A DNA stretch of 37,601 nucleotides from Candidatus Omnitrophota bacterium. GTDB lineage: Bacteria; Omnitrophota; Omnitrophia; Omnitrophales; Aquincolibacteriaceae. Where the stretch lies: NCBI GenBank assembly GCA_903819565.1, contig CAIJDY010000137.1:1-37601 (forward strand), written 5' to 3'. The position numbers were made by a program, and so were the translations under genes. Below are positions 6,436 through 23,282 of the stretch, one piece after another (position 1 is the stretch's first letter; every line of letters starts with the position of its first letter). The notes beneath the pieces were generated by a model. That model searched no databases. It saw only the letters and a list, made by a program, of their open reading frames with translations, and was not told where the DNA came from.

Positions 6436-6650
6436 TGTCATCCCCACGCCACCGCATTTTGCGGGGTCCCGCCCGAAGGCGGAAAAAGCGAAGATCCGGA
6501 AAATGGATTCCAGCACTGAACGACCGATTAAATTTATCGAAAATTTAGTGCGGCACTTGCTTTCAATATGGAAGCCAGTGTCGATAAAAACATTTCCGCC
6601 AGACGGCGTCGGCGGATCCGTCCAGCGCCTTGTGGCGGACGGGAATGACA
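6436..6650. repeat. MITE-like, hairpin-rich element with terminal inverted repeats
   Basis: This roughly 215-base stretch begins with TGTCATCCCC (6436-6445) and ends with GGGAATGACA (6641-6650), inverted repeats matching at 9 of 10 positions. Inside are perfect small hairpins: CCGCA/TGCGG (6452-6464), CCGCC/GGCGG (6469-6482), and a pair near 6598-6620. The GTCATTCCC-type ends and the ATGGATTCCAG motif resemble dispersed non-coding repeats common in GC-rich genomes. No target duplication is evident, and no real ORF lies inside. Together with its flanks it fills the 310-base gap 6413-6722 between two convergent genes, where it could also act as a two-way terminator. Confidence 0.5.
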
Positions 6651-6722: not shown

Positions 6723-8363
6723 TCAATCCGCGTGACGGATCCCCTGGACGCCGGCGGCATTCAGGCGGACCGTCACCGGAGGATTTTCTTTTTGCGAGGA
6801 GGAACGCAGGGCCCGGATCGAAAGTTGTATCACGGAATTCTCCGACAGCCACTTGGGCTGGAGCTTTACCTCGGACCCGGCTGTTTCCAGATCTGCGATC
6901 TTTTTGTTCCCCGCGCTCACTTCCACGCGGTAAACGGTCCCTTCCCGGGGAACAAATCCGTAAACGACCGCCAGATCCTTGAAAGACAGGACCCCTCCCA
7001 AAAAAGCGAATTGGTCCAGCGGACTGACCCTGGAAAACCAGTACTTCGCGATCATGTCCCGGCGTTCGCTCAAGGTCTTCACGATATAGTCTTCATCGTC
7101 GGGGCGGCTGTATTTCCCGGCCTTGACCATAGCACGGATATCCTCGTCCGAAAAACTCATCATGATCTTGGCGGCCCAAAAACCGTCCGCCCGCGTGATC
7201 ACCCGGAAAGCTTCGTAAGGGAGCAGATCTTTGAACTTCGCGGGATCAAAAAGGTCGTTACTGAAATAGCCGACCGCGGGCGAATATATTTTTTCTCCCG
7301 CGAGGCGCCATTTTTTCTGCCAGGGCTTCTCCCAAAAACCGAGGCCCAGGATCGCCTTGATGCTCTCTCCGTAATCCACCATATGTTCATACCCGAACAT
7401 CGGCTCTTTCGGCCCGTCCGTCGCCGCTCCGAGGGAATTCGTGAAGTCCGTCAGGTAATGTTTGAGAACGGTCCGGCCGTTCTCGGTCACCGCCATATCC
7501 AGCGTATTGCTTTCGAGCATTTCGTGATGGTTCAGCCACGCCGCAAAAACTCCCAGCGCACGGATCTCCCGAAGATCGCGATGGTTCACGATGTCCTGGG
7601 GATTGTTTTTCCCGCGGCCTAAAAAGCTGAATTTTCCCGCCTCCGTCCCTGCCGGGACCTTGGTGGCGGACGCCCGGTAAACCCCGTTCGGCAGCGGCAC
7701 GAACAACAGGTACTCCTGCAGGATCTTTTGGGTCAATTTTTTAACGAAGCCCGTGTTGTCGATCGTAATGGCGTCCGGGGCGGCCATAAGTTGGTCCGCG
7801 GCGAACGACAGGATCGTCGCCTGCGGGACGTTGTATCCGAGCGCGTAGTAAAAGCGGTTACCGATCACTTCCGCCGCAGTATTGAGTTCCGACGCTCCCT
7901 GCGCGTCAAACCGGAGGATGTATTTGTCTTTCTTGACGTCTTCCACGAGGAACCCGTAATGCGCGCCCTGCTGCTCCGCTCCCTGCACACTCAGCGGCTT
8001 GCTGAGGTCCGGTCCGTCGGCAACAAAGGCGCCTTTTTCAAGATCGGCCGCGGAAAGTTTTTGCCGGGCGTGACGGTTCGTGAAAAAAGGAGAATCCGGA
8101 ACTTCATCAAAAATGTTGGTGCTGGCGGACGGGATGGTTTTGCCGGTGATCTTGCGGCCCCACCGCCCCAGATCGAGCTGGTTCATGGCTTCGCCGTAGG
8201 CCGACTGATCGAACGCGTCCTTATAAAGCGTGACCTCGCCTTCACCCATTCTTTCCGTTTCCCCCGCGAAAGATACCACGCCGGCGGCGGCTAGCCCGAT
8301 CACAAGACCGAGGACGGCTCGAAGCGTTAAACTGCTTATTTTTTTCATGGTTTCTCTCGTCAT
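6723..8363 (-). CDS. Secreted protein of unknown function with kinase-like motifs
   Basis: The 546-residue protein has a signal peptide (about residues 7-33). The true start may be the ATG five codons later (8348), giving MKKISSL.... I do not know a named family. The middle shows a pattern resembling small-molecule or spore-coat type kinase folds: YILRFDAQG followed by AAEVIGNRFYYALGYNVP, then NHHEMLESNTLDM (catalytic-loop-like) and YLTDFTNSLG (where DFG would stand). The catalytic Asp of the loop is not obvious and DFG is DFT, so activity is doubtful. It lies 12 bases after the outer-membrane barrel gene. From memory, similar proteins occur beside such barrels, so a joint envelope role is likely. 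The kinase-like reading is my inference. Confidence 0.75.
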   Translation of the reverse strand: MTRETMKKISSLTLRAVLGLVIGLAAAGVVSFAGETERMGEGEVTLYKDAFDQSAYGEAMNQLDLGRWGRKITGKTIPSASTNIFDEVPDSPFFTNRHARQKLSAADLEKGAFVADGPDLSKPLSVQGAEQQGAHYGFLVEDVKKDKYILRFDAQGASELNTAAEVIGNRFYYALGYNVPQATILSFAADQLMAAPDAITIDNTGFVKKLTQKILQEYLLFVPLPNGVYRASATKVPAGTEAGKFSFLGRGKNNPQDIVNHRDLREIRALGVFAAWLNHHEMLESNTLDMAVTENGRTVLKHYLTDFTNSLGAATDGPKEPMFGYEHMVDYGESIKAILGLGFWEKPWQKKWRLAGEKIYSPAVGYFSNDLFDPAKFKDLLPYEAFRVITRADGFWAAKIMMSFSDEDIRAMVKAGKYSRPDDEDYIVKTLSERRDMIAKYWFSRVSPLDQFAFLGGVLSFKDLAVVYGFVPREGTVYRVEVSAGNKKIADLETAGSEVKLQPKWLSENSVIQLSIRALRSSSQKENPPVTVRLNAAGVQGIRHAD

Positions 8364-8375
8364 CGCGTTGGTACC

Positions 8376-9785
8376 TTAAAAAGCCAGTTTATTCTCGAGA
8401 TAAAATTGCGTTCCCTCGTTCCCGTGAGCCACGTTAAAGCTGAGCAGAACGAGTTGCGAGTGGCTTAAGTGCAACCCTGCCCCGTAGGACTCCCGGAAAC
8501 CGTTGAGACGAAATGTGGCAAAATCCTTGGAAACCTGTCCTTCATCCAGAAAAACGACCGTTTTCAGTTTAAATTCTTTGTACTGCCATACCGTGTAGCG
8601 GTATTCAAGGTTCAGGAGGAGCGCACTCTCGCCAAAAAAACGGTTGTAAACGAAGGCCCGCGACGTCTGGCTCTGACGCGGGAACATCCCGGAACCGCCC
8701 AGCTTCGTCATTTCATAGAAGGGAACGTTCCCGCCGTTCACCCGTTGATTAAACTCCCCGAAAAGACGCGCCGCAAGGATTCTCCGGGGAGAAGCCAGCT
8801 GAAAATATTTCGCCGCGTCAAGCTGGTACGTGAAGTACCGGGCCGGAGAACTTTCGACGCCCTCCGTGTACTTAAAAAGAAGTTTCTGATAGCTGCCTTT
8901 GGTCGCGTCTTCCTTGCTGTCCCGGGTGTCGCGGTCCAAACGGATGGAAAAGTCCAGGAAATCATCGCCGTGGAGGCCCGGAATATTCTCGCCGGCGAAG
9001 ATCTGGGTGATATCTCCCTTCCCTTCATGGGCGCGGTTCTTGATGTTCACATGGCTATAATCCACTTGGGAAGTCAGGTCCAGCGAAGATGAGAATTCAT
9101 AACCGGCTTTCGCACCCACTGTCGTTTTTTCCTCGATAAACGAAGTGCTGTCGCCGCGGCTGGAGTCCGTGCCGAGGCCGTAGAACGTTTCATTCCGACG
9201 GTTCTCATACTCAATAATGCTGGAGGTGTGGAACCCCGTTTCGCCGATCCTCTGGGCCCCGAGTTCGCCGCCGGCCTGGAAATAATTAGTCGGCCCGTGG
9301 TTGATCCAGCCCTTCGCGATGAAATCGGGATAGTTTTCCTTCTGCCGTATGATCCTGACAAGGTCGAATTCGGCGCCGTAGGAAGGGATGCCCGAAAAGC
9401 CCAGAGAATCCAGCCGCGGCTTCACGCCGTAGTCCATGATCCGGTCATAGATCCAAACGGTCTTCTTATCAAGCCGGTAATTTTCCGTCATGACGAGCGA
9501 TTGGTCGATGGGCCATTTCGCAAGCTTAAAGGGCCACTCGATCGCGCGGGACAGGGCGTCCTTTAAAGGGGTTTTGGCCAAGGGCTTCTCGTAAAGGGGC
9601 GCGTAATAATCCGTTTTCTGGTCTTCCGCGCGGCCAGGCGCGGCAAGGGCCAAAAGACAGAGACAAAAAAACAATAAAAATTTTTTCGGTTTCAATTTTT
9701 TCTCGTAAAAAGTTCTAAGTTCGACGCTGAAGCGATCCAGCTCTTCGGGCGGCAGTATTTTGCACTCTTTCGGCAAGATTTTCAA
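8376..9785 (-). CDS. Outer-membrane beta-barrel protein, Omp85/surface-antigen (D15) type
   Basis: The protein has a signal peptide ending at APGRA|EDQ, then alternating hydrophobic/polar strands with many aromatics, ending in a terminal Phe (ENKLAF), the usual barrel-assembly signature. The final part (about 300-469) resembles the BamA/TamA C-terminal barrel: RLDRDTRDS, GGSGMFPRQSQTSRAF, LNLEYRY, FLDEGQVS and YGAGLHL. No POTRA repeats are seen, so it is shorter than true BamA. The track start at 10115 is wrong because its first part lies over yraN. I place the start at the TTG at 9785: it overlaps the yraN stop as TTGA and has AAAGAGGA 6 bases upstream. A second TTG at 9695 would give a shorter signal peptide. 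The partner is the secreted protein encoded next. Confidence 0.8.
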   Translation of the reverse strand: MKILPKECKILPPEELDRFSVELRTFYEKKLKPKKFLLFFCLCLLALAAPGRAEDQKTDYYAPLYEKPLAKTPLKDALSRAIEWPFKLAKWPIDQSLVMTENYRLDKKTVWIYDRIMDYGVKPRLDSLGFSGIPSYGAEFDLVRIIRQKENYPDFIAKGWINHGPTNYFQAGGELGAQRIGETGFHTSSIIEYENRRNETFYGLGTDSSRGDSTSFIEEKTTVGAKAGYEFSSSLDLTSQVDYSHVNIKNRAHEGKGDITQIFAGENIPGLHGDDFLDFSIRLDRDTRDSKEDATKGSYQKLLFKYTEGVESSPARYFTYQLDAAKYFQLASPRRILAARLFGEFNQRVNGGNVPFYEMTKLGGSGMFPRQSQTSRAFVYNRFFGESALLLNLEYRYTVWQYKEFKLKTVVFLDEGQVSKDFATFRLNGFRESYGAGLHLSHSQLVLLSFNVAHGNEGTQFYLENKLAF

Positions 9786-10180
9786 CAGGCATCCTCTTTT
9801 TCTCCGAAGGCATCCGCGAGAAGCCGGACATCGGGCGCCTGTCCTTCCCTCCAGACCACCGCGACCACATCGAACGAGACCGGAACGTCCGGCATCTTTT
9901 TTTCCTTCAGGTACCATGAGGCCAGTTTGAGGAGTTTTTCCCGCTTCCGCGCGTCCACCGCCTCCTGGGGCGTTCCGAACTGCGCGCCGGTGCGGGTCTT
10001 GATCTCGATGAAAGCGAGCCTTCCCTTTCTTTTCGCAACCGCGTCGATCTCCCCCAGCGCGCATTTGTAATTTTTTTCGAGGATCGTGTACCCGTTCTTC
10101 TTCAGGAATTCGCACGCCACGATCTCCCCACGGTCACCCAGGGAAAGACGGAAAGGTTTGGGGTTAGGAGTAAGTCTCAC
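9782..10180 (-). CDS. yraN: YraN-type (UPF0102) endonuclease-like protein
   Basis: The 132-residue protein from the GTG at 10180 matches the YraN/UPF0102 family in length and motifs: [17 protein letters not shown], then GEIDAVAK and FIEIKTR, the acidic/Lys positions of a PD-(D/E)xK nuclease fold. Family members are linked to recombination or DNA processing, but the reaction is poorly defined. The start overlaps the rnhB stop as GTGA, and an rnhB-yraN pair is a common arrangement. The track start at 10255 lies inside rnhB and is less likely. Confidence 0.9.
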
Positions 10181-10833
10181 GCGCTTATTCCCAGGGCGGC
10201 CTCGCGGACGGGCGCAAAACTCTGGCGATGCACCGGCGACGGTCCGGCCTCGCAAAGGGCCTTGAGATGCGCGGCGGTTCCGTACCCTTTGTGGTCGGCG
10301 AACGCGTACGCGGGATAGAGCTCATGAAGCTTGCGCATCCAGTGGTCCCGGAAGACCTTCGCCACGATGGATGCCGCGGCAATGCTAAGAGATTTCTGAT
10401 CGCCCTGAATAACGCTCTTTTGTTCAAGGGGAAGGTCCAGACGCATGTTCCCGTCGGTCAGGAGCAGCACCGGGGTATGGGGAAGGTTCAGCACAGCTTT
10501 TTTCATCGCGAGCCGCGTCGCCTCGTAGATATTGATCTCGTCGATCTGCTTCTCGTCCACAACGCCAATCCCGACCAGGCAGGAACGCGCGATCACGCCG
10601 TAGAGTTTTTCTCTCCGGGAAGCGCTGAGCTTCTTGGAATCATTAACACCCAAAAGAGCCTCCGGCTGGAAAACGATCGCGGCGGCGGCGACGACCGGGC
10701 CGGCCAAAGGACCGCGGCCGGCTTCATCCACGCCAGCCATCCAGCCCTTCAAATCTCCGGCTTGGGTCCGGTCAAACGCATGAAGGTCCTGAAGGAGCTG
10801 CACCTTTCGGGTTTCTCGAACGGAAACATCCAC
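10177..10833 (-). CDS. rnhB: Ribonuclease HII
   Basis: This enzyme cuts RNA in RNA/DNA hybrids and removes single ribonucleotides from DNA. The 218-residue length is normal. Motifs are clear: [18 protein letters not shown] near residue 35 (first catalytic Asp-Glu), NDSKKLS, TDGN (third acidic residue), and [17 protein letters not shown] with the last Asp. It lies 21 bases after rplS and overlaps yraN by 4 bases, in the common order rplS-rnhB-yraN. Confidence 0.97.
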
Positions 10834-22246: not shown

Positions 22247-22756
22247 TTAGAAAACGTACCGGCCGAGGCCCCACAGGGCAAGGGAAACGAATGCCGCCAA
22301 AAGACAAAAAACGGGCCACCCCTTCACCGGCTCCGGGACGCTTGAAAAAAGAAGCTTGTACCTCAGCCCGAGAAAACCGGTCTGAAATAGCGCGACCCCC
22401 ACGCTCGCAACCCACACCCATGAGAGGTTATAAAAAAAGTCCTCGCGAACAGAAAGAGGCGTGGACGCCAGGGCGATCACGAAAAAAAAGAAAAAATCGG
22501 ATTTTTTCTGGTAACGCGTCAAAAGATAGGCCGTCGCTCCCGTAAGCAGGACCGCGTATTCCCGGACAAAACCCCGGCAGCCGGCAAAACTTGCGGTCAC
22601 CGTGAAAAGAGCCGCGATCAGCCCGAGAGTCAGGAAAAGATCCGTCGCCTCCCGCCAGATCCAAAAAAAGGACGGCACAGGCCTTTGGGAAAAAGCCTGC
22701 CGCGACCCTCGGATCGCGAACAAAAAACCGGCAACGATGATCAGGCTGTAGGACAT
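22247..22756 (-). CDS. Divergent RnfA/NqrE-like membrane protein without cluster cysteines
   Basis: This 169-residue integral membrane protein has about six hydrophobic segments. Size, position and the C-terminal part match RnfA: FFYNLSWVWVASVGVALFQTGFLGLRYKL parallels the helix ending in the family's LFAGIRERL, and SVPEPVKGWPVFCLLAAFVSLALWGL parallels IPKAFRGLPIALI..GLMSLAFMGF. The two places where RnfA has its conserved cysteines (LGICP and NCAVLG) read as GSRQAF and ASTPLS here, so the intramembrane iron-sulfur cluster cannot form in the usual way. The assignment rests on these alignments and on the operon; it is the last gene, 4 bases after the RnfE-like gene. Confidence 0.7.
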   Translation of the reverse strand: MSYSLIIVAGFLFAIRGSRQAFSQRPVPSFFWIWREATDLFLTLGLIAALFTVTASFAGCRGFVREYAVLLTGATAYLLTRYQKKSDFFFFFVIALASTPLSVREDFFYNLSWVWVASVGVALFQTGFLGLRYKLLFSSVPEPVKGWPVFCLLAAFVSLALWGLGRYVF

Positions 22757-22760
22757 ACGG

Positions 22761-23282
22761 CTACCTTCGAAAGGGCTGGTTTTTCCAAAAGGACGCCAGA
22801 ACGGCGATCAGCAGGAAAAGAACAGCCGGTTGTTGAAATGAAATGCCCCGCCCCCCAAACTCCAAGCCTTTTTGAGCTCCCGTGACGATAAGGACGAAGA
22901 GGATGAACCCGAAGCCCGCGACGGCCCTCTCCCAAAAGTACCTTAAGACCTCCTTTGAAAAAACGCGGGCCCGGCTCGCCCTTTTTTCTTTTTCCATAAA
23001 AGAGAGCGGCGTCAGAAAAAAAACGCTCAACAGCCACAGCGGTTCCAGCTCCGCAAGGGTCCAGACGATTTGCCCCCAGACGAGCAGCCAAAGAAAAAAA
23101 GCCTCCTTCAGGAACCTTTCGGGAAAAAACCTGCGCGTGAACCAGAAAAACAGAAGGGAGATCCAGGAGACGGCCGTGATCAACAGCGCCGTCTGGCAAG
23201 CTCTCGGGGGATCGAACGCATAGGCCATGAGAGGAAGATAAGCCAGGACGCTTCTTGAAAAAAGGCTTTCCGGCAGCTTCAT
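22761..23282 (-). CDS. Divergent RnfE/NqrD-like membrane protein without cluster cysteines
   Basis: This 173-residue membrane protein has five to six hydrophobic segments. The start (LFSRSVLAYLPLMAYAFDPPRACQTALLI) parallels the RnfE opening NPVLVQLLGLCPLLAVT..., and WERAVAGFGFILFVLIVTGAQKGLEFG parallels the family's GLGMGLGFTLALTLLGAIREILG. Both cysteine sites are changed: LCP is YLP, and NCAILG is LTPLSF; the only Cys (C29) is elsewhere. It overlaps the 48-residue gene by 4 bases and is 4 bases from the RnfA-like gene. Homology is distant and should be confirmed by profile search. Confidence 0.7.
   Translation of the reverse strand: MKLPESLFSRSVLAYLPLMAYAFDPPRACQTALLITAVSWISLLFFWFTRRFFPERFLKEAFFLWLLVWGQIVWTLAELEPLWLLSVFFLTPLSFMEKEKRASRARVFSKEVLRYFWERAVAGFGFILFVLIVTGAQKGLEFGGRGISFQQPAVLFLLIAVLASFWKNQPFRR

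Follow-up and report, generated by a model that had tools for sequence, protein, structure and literature searches.

The general view is that little usable ATP exists beyond the bacterial cytoplasm, and for this reason dedicated periplasmic kinases have hardly been considered. NTT-HEAT proteins are described as widespread in bacteria with functions unknown, and the excerpted text of that survey names no kinase partner for them (Major et al. 2017, PMC5381601). For two Omnitrophota classes the ATP/ADP translocase is listed as a symbiosis factor, again with no exported kinase partner mentioned in the excerpt (Seymour et al. 2023, PMC10066038). Here we describe a gene pair in a stretch of 37,601 nucleotides, called the window below (contig C137, GenBank: CAIJDY010000137.1), from a Candidatus Omnitrophota genome of 2.1 Mb that is 84% complete (assembly GCA_903819565.1). 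The pair consists of BAR, an outer membrane barrel, and KIN, an exported protein whose fold resembles that of kinases; all window coordinates given below refer to features on the minus strand. We lean towards reading the pair as the core that is left of an envelope phosphorylation module, of which the window would hold a derived, catalytically dead form.

Among 58 genomes, made up of that of the window and those of its nearest relatives, 46 encode KIN. A wider draw gave KIN in 53 of 285 Omnitrophota genomes and in 27 of 149 genomes from the phylum of the acidobacterial hit. Outside one distant Omnitrophota family (f43), BAR is positioned directly upstream of KIN in all 77 copies where this could be determined, 46 of which belong to Omnitrophota and 31 to Acidobacteriota. 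Because KIN is present in most of the 58 genomes and the barrel directly precedes it in all of the 77 copies, it is confirmed that the barrel and the exported kinase-like protein form more than a chance pair. An earlier note on this stretch, made from the sequence alone, had proposed such a pair, and its co-occurrence across genomes is borne out by the adjacency in two phyla. Long open reading frames (ORFs) that resembled barrel-kinase fusions were rejected, as the barrel is a separate ORF.

KIN (6723..8363) has 546 amino acids and was annotated from its ORF, the alignment A1, an AlphaFold2 (AF2) model and Foldseek. The signal peptide and the segments LRFD...AAEVIGNRFYYALGY, SNTLDM and TDFTNSLG, which the earlier note had pointed out, are all present. 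The Sec-type signal peptide MTRETMKKISSLTLRAVLGLVIGLAAAGVVSFA covers approximately residues 1-33 (8265..8363) and is predicted from the sequence and a heuristic. We used a stricter version of this heuristic, which replaced a first one that had called cytoplasmic controls positive. It is positive for 23 of 27 KIN family members and for none of the trmD, rnhB, yraN, prmC and prfA controls, and it misjudges the aroA control (6 of 10 positive). The most conserved N-terminal segment in A1 is N-x2-DEVPDS-x4-NR at residues 83-97 (8073..8117), in which N83, D86, E87, V88, D90, N96 and R97 are invariant, degenerate KINs included.

The AF2 model of KIN (pLDDT 86.4, pTM 0.86) together with Foldseek delimits a kinase-like domain at residues 124-445 (7029..7994), with strands in the N-lobe, alpha-C, a catalytic loop and a DFG-like loop, and a helical C-lobe. 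The elements follow each other in a kinase-like order: the beta strands come first, the third of them carrying residue 151, and are followed by alpha-C (with E165), a helix, the catalytic loop (residues 278-286), a hairpin, D306 and further helices. The domain that follows at the C-terminus (residues 449-545; 6729..7019) is an Ig/FN3-like beta-sandwich according to the model strands and Foldseek matches to the FN3 domains of CD45 and cytokine receptors. The kinases that match KIN best in Foldseek are HipT (E = 7e-4), CtkA (probability 1.0) and Fam20C; RIO2 and PI4K2A rank lower. Fold prediction and fold search thus put kinases of the HipA/CtkA/Fam20C type first, in agreement with the kinase fold outside the cytoplasm that the earlier note had suspected.

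No Pfam or NCBIfam family, including HipA_C and HipA_2, was assigned to the KIN of the window. Scanning the relatives with intact residues one by one gave HipA_2 matches in 29 of 53 and HipA_C matches in 11 of 53, the best with an E-value of 6e-5. A profile search of the PDB sequences with KIN found no kinase, and the kinase identity therefore rests on the fold, the motifs and the weak HipA matches. Almost no HipA_2 relatives were found in nearby genomes. A NIPSNAP match (E = 0.13) and a PDB match to LBA1460 (E = 0.006) were dismissed as chance. Three degenerate acidobacterial KINs (L040, 250-1500, minus strand; L056, 2734-4164, plus strand; L069, 4-1500, minus strand) carry a C-terminal extension of approximately 400-500 residues with no Pfam match.

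BAR (8376..9695) is an Omp85 barrel of 439 amino acids, identified with Pfam, AF2 and Foldseek. Its match to the Omp85 family (Pfam: PF01103) has an E-value of 8e-20 and 72 bits against a cut-off of 24, which is above the gathering score, and no POTRA model matched in the Pfam scan, so that the barrel without POTRA domains of the earlier note stands. In the AF2 model (pLDDT 79), about 90 mostly helical residues precede a barrel domain of approximately 16 strands, for which Foldseek found BamA/TamA barrels with E ~1e-12. The earlier note had placed the start at 9785, which is probably too early. Since the relatives begin at the equivalent of the TTG codon at 9695, directly before the signal peptide, BAR most likely begins there. 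This signal peptide, LKPKKFLLFFCLCLLALAAPGRA (9627..9695), is predicted from the sequence and the start common to relatives, and the export-signal heuristic is positive for 23 of 25 BAR family members. An Omp85 L6-type motif lies around R346 (8655..8663), which reads SRAF in the window against a family consensus of LRGF; the reference L6 motif is (V/I)RG(F/Y), and R346 is invariant in the BAR alignment A2. The ORF of BAR ends at 8376, 12 bases upstream of the ATG of KIN.

Clustering the neighbouring genes in relatives revealed two recurrent partners of the pair, a TLC/NTT ATP/ADP carrier and a PTP/DSP phosphatase, both of which are absent from the window itself. The carriers match the TLC family (Pfam: PF03219) above the cut-off, with E-values down to 2e-28, frequently contain HEAT repeats and are relatives of ADP,ATP carriers of known structure, among them the chloroplast one (9j3j, E = 2e-23). 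Their charged positions, which we take to be those of the essential residues of plant AtNTT1, are largely kept. Among the Omnitrophota with an NTT, 37 of 40 genomes also encode KIN (Fisher test, 3e-30, uncorrected for the relatedness of the genomes), and in 35 of these 37 the NTT lies within 6 kb of KIN. In Acidobacteriota, an NTT is present in 24 of the 27 genomes with KIN and in 20 of the 122 others. Neither the Pfam scan nor a profile built from the operon NTTs found an NTT in the genome or genus of the window. The phosphatase is of an exported type, with an intact HCx5R site and an N-terminal export signal seen by eye in all copies except that of G095, and it also matches models of PTP-like phytases. 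Nine Omnitrophota have the gene order PTP-BAR-KIN-NTT, and in the acidobacterial genomes G153 and G074 the phosphatase adjoins the pair.

Three further observations concern these neighbourhoods. At the f43 loci L105, L106, L107, L108, L203 and L204, a KIN of lipoprotein type comes immediately after the NTT, and the barrel is missing. The NTTs of G012, G021 and G006, from the window's family, are ORFs of only 423-442 amino acids and seem to be without the HEAT part. Furthermore, a small DUF5329 protein recurs beside the module (L096, 12455-13045; L097, 7049-7564; L098, 9484-10293, lipoprotein-like; L003, 3832-4569).

In the numbering of the window KIN, the family pattern is K151, E165, D281, N286 and D306, with the motif N-x-D-x4-N followed by DF. 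Two of these positions are changed in the window. The beta-3 lysine position 151 (7911..7913), which is K in most relatives, is R, and the catalytic Asp position 281 (7521..7523), which is D in the N-x-D-x4-N motif of most relatives, is E (HHEMLESN). The metal-binding Asn N286 (7506..7508) and the DFG-like metal-binding Asp D306 (YLTDF; 7446..7448) are kept. All four of K151, D281, N286 and D306 are present in 58 of the 85 KIN copies examined. The description of the motifs as degenerate in the earlier note applies to the window KIN; most of the family keeps the catalytic residues.

R151 and E281 are shared by the genus of the window. In its sister clade, g8, residue 151 is E and residue 286 is D or S. 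Other degenerate KINs are those of G018 (N281 and G306), G017 (R151, T286 and S306) and G035 (R281). In none of the genomes of the window genus, g8, G018, G017 and G035 was an NTT found with Pfam or the operon-NTT profile. Second KIN copies that are distant from an NTT are degenerate as well (G031, G013, G039, G058 and G162). At the genome level, 34 of 35 Omnitrophota with an NTT have a copy with intact D-N-D, and 11 of 15 Omnitrophota with no NTT are degenerate. We built a tree of the 85 KIN copies with the catalytic columns excluded, on which at least nine state changes are needed. A Pagel-type likelihood test on the association gave a likelihood ratio of 17.8 with p = 0.0013 for an NTT nearby and p = 0.009 for an NTT in the genome. 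That the catalytic residues track the presence of the carrier is supported, though not proven. As a separate observation, the acidobacterial KINs L058, L059, L060, L061, L062 and L121 keep D281, N286 and D306 but carry E, Q or S in place of the beta-3 Lys, and four of them are near an NTT.

In two degenerate genera the dN/dS is 0.08-0.17 for KIN and 0.08-0.12 for BAR. The window KIN is not a decaying gene and is under purifying selection. With R151 and E281, no NTT in the genome and yet purifying selection, it is predicted to be a pseudokinase, and a non-catalytic role with the barrel would be the simplest reading.

Sequence and models show the export signals, the kinase-like fold, the operon partners, the residue pattern and the purifying selection. 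The module of the relatives would have four parts, an exported or lipoprotein kinase of the HipA/CtkA/Fam20C type, the POTRA-less barrel encoded directly before it, the inner membrane NTT/TLC carrier and often an exported PTP/DSP phosphatase. The carrier would exchange cytoplasmic ATP for periplasmic ADP, with this ATP the exported kinase would phosphorylate a target in the envelope at, through or near the barrel, and the exported phosphatase would reverse the phosphorylation. Kinase activity, direction of transport, substrate and contact between KIN and the barrel are the steps that we infer. In the lineage of the window the carrier, the beta-3 lysine and the catalytic Asp have been lost, with KIN conserved beside the barrel. 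As catalytic residues and carrier are gone and the protein is nevertheless conserved with the barrel, the window KIN is most likely a non-catalytic, barrel-associated pseudokinase. Tentatively, and with slightly more doubt than confidence, we propose that the intact form is a dedicated bacterial system for extracytoplasmic phosphorylation, with its own inner membrane ATP exporter, an exported kinase and phosphatase and an outer membrane barrel.

Several results weigh against this reading. All six f43 genomes encode KIN without BAR, and not every version of the module therefore depends on the barrel; in these six KINs a lipobox replaces the signal peptide, and the arrangement may be an alternative form of the module or an older one. 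A test on independent pairs had approximately three informative pairs, nearly all in the expected direction, and gave p ~0.25. The KINs of G014, G003, G010 and G082 are intact with no NTT detected (G003 and G010 are incomplete genomes), that of G406 has N286Q beside an NTT, and in some Acidobacteriota the beta-3 Lys of a KIN beside an NTT is replaced by E, Q or S. Moreover, no more than 10 of 26 acidobacterial genomes have the NTT close to KIN. The Foldseek TM-scores of KIN are low, with a maximum of about 0.5 by target, and its tie to the known kinases in the model comparison is therefore remote. The HipA matches of the relatives, among those viewed in detail, are under the gathering score and cover the N-lobe.

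Energy parasitism, which we regard as an unlikely explanation, would have the NTT import ATP from a host or prey, with barrel, kinase-like protein and phosphatase as surface or periplasmic accessories of symbiosis; lineages that left this lifestyle would have lost the NTT, and their kinase would have decayed. Sequence cannot tell the direction of transport, and Seymour et al. (2023) take the Omnitrophota ATP/ADP translocases as a symbiosis factor (PMC10066038). In the 2017 survey, the functionally characterised NTTs all come from parasites or from organelles such as plastids (PMC5381601). However, the same pair occurs with an NTT in Acidobacteriota genomes of 2.5-8 Mb, and parasitism does not explain why an exported kinase and a phosphatase should be operon partners of the carrier, or why the kinase residues should follow it.

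The constant position of the barrel directly upstream of KIN outside f43, and the purifying selection that holds the pair even after the loss of catalytic residues, would also fit a KIN that serves the barrel as accessory or substrate in outer membrane assembly or secretion (BAM-like or two-partner), with nucleotide use secondary or ancestral. Omp85 proteins generally serve in assembly or translocation (PMC4104836). We think this rather improbable, as it leaves the NTT and the phosphatase unaccounted for, the f43 genomes retain NTT and KIN without a barrel, and the barrel has no POTRA domains.

Less probable again is a kinase-like fold with another chemistry, either a SelO-like transfer of AMP or a kinase reaction on glycans or lipids rather than proteins. 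The conserved K-D-N-D is the ordinary set for phosphotransfer and nothing points directly to AMP transfer. On the other side, Fam20B/POMK-type kinases phosphorylate sugars, the phosphatase also resembles PTP-like phytases, and the beta-3 Lys varies in Acidobacteriota.

The minus strand order in the window is trmD, rplS, rnhB, yraN, BAR and KIN. The upstream neighbours yraN (UPF0102; 9782..10180; Pfam: PF02021, E 5e-27) and rnhB (ribonuclease HII; 10177..10833; Pfam: PF01351, E 1.5e-36) are outside the module. The trmD-rplS-rnhB-yraN genes precede the pair in only some relatives and do so neither for its second copies nor in Acidobacteriota, so the attachment to a DNA/RNA maintenance operon that the earlier note had described is incidental. 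That two unrelated genes were brought together by the chance of a housekeeping position, as their common order in much of the window's own family might suggest, is refuted by the persistence of the pair without that neighbourhood in second copies, other Omnitrophota families and Acidobacteriota, and we give this practically no credence. A plasmid search gave no match. Besides these genes, a terminator-like hairpin lies at 6595-6616, 3' of KIN and ahead of a convergent histidine kinase gene; the scan gave fewer such sites than shuffles. At 22250-23282, two ORFs of about 170 amino acids with no Pfam match adjoin a T2SSE ATPase, with an AT skew of 0.30.

If the envelope phosphorylation reading is true, free-living bacteria would use at least some of their ATP/ADP translocases as exporters that feed envelope enzymes and not as tools of energy parasitism. 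It would bear on the role of the NTT-HEAT carriers in free-living bacteria, a subject of the 2017 survey (PMC5381601). Likewise, it would bear on whether the ATP/ADP translocases of Omnitrophota indicate a symbiotic lifestyle, as in Seymour et al. (PMC10066038), for which the operon offers an alternative reading. An operon with an exported kinase, an ATP/ADP carrier and an exported phosphatase makes extracytoplasmic phosphorylation testable in a cultured relative. The window itself can be seen as a natural loss experiment, in which the carrier and the kinase residues are gone and the pair is still conserved.

Each part of the module is a known fold, and the novelty lies in the system and not in its parts. 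The open-access literature that we searched gave nothing relevant on nucleotide carriers that accompany a periplasmic kinase in bacteria, and as far as it shows, the combination is undescribed as a system. BAR fits the group of 'noNterm' Omp85 proteins, which in the excerpt of Heinz and Lithgow (2014) likewise have no POTRA or other known N-terminal domain (PMC4104836). BAR differs from these in its short conserved helical N-terminal segment and in the tie to a kinase-like partner, a link not described in that excerpt, and from BamA, TamA and TpsB in the absence of POTRA domains. Several operon NTTs share the TLC domain and C-terminal HEAT repeats with the NTT-HEAT transporters of free-living bacteria (Major et al. 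2017), whereas some operon NTTs are without HEAT repeats.

KIN is most similar to HipA, HipT and CtkA (Pfam: PF07804, HipA_C; PF20613, HipA_2), which comprise its best kinase fold matches, and the KIN family shares with them the N-x-D-x4-N and DF motifs and, in many intact relatives, weak Pfam matches in the N-lobe. In contrast to these cytoplasmic proteins, KIN is exported via a signal peptide or lipobox, has a C-terminal Ig-like domain and the extra N-terminal DEVPDS-x4-NR segment, and falls below the Pfam gathering scores. No HipB-like partner is among its recurrent neighbours, which are the barrel and, in relatives, the NTT and the PTP. The secretory pathway kinases such as Fam20C, together with the endoplasmic reticulum exchanger SLC35B1/AXER, are alike in logic and not by descent, being extracytosolic kinases fed by an ATP exchanger (PMC7948968, PMC6113206). 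Fam20C is among the Foldseek matches of KIN, with no sequence relation shown, and the module described here differs from that pathway in using an NTT/TLC carrier rather than an SLC35 protein and in having an outer membrane barrel as partner.

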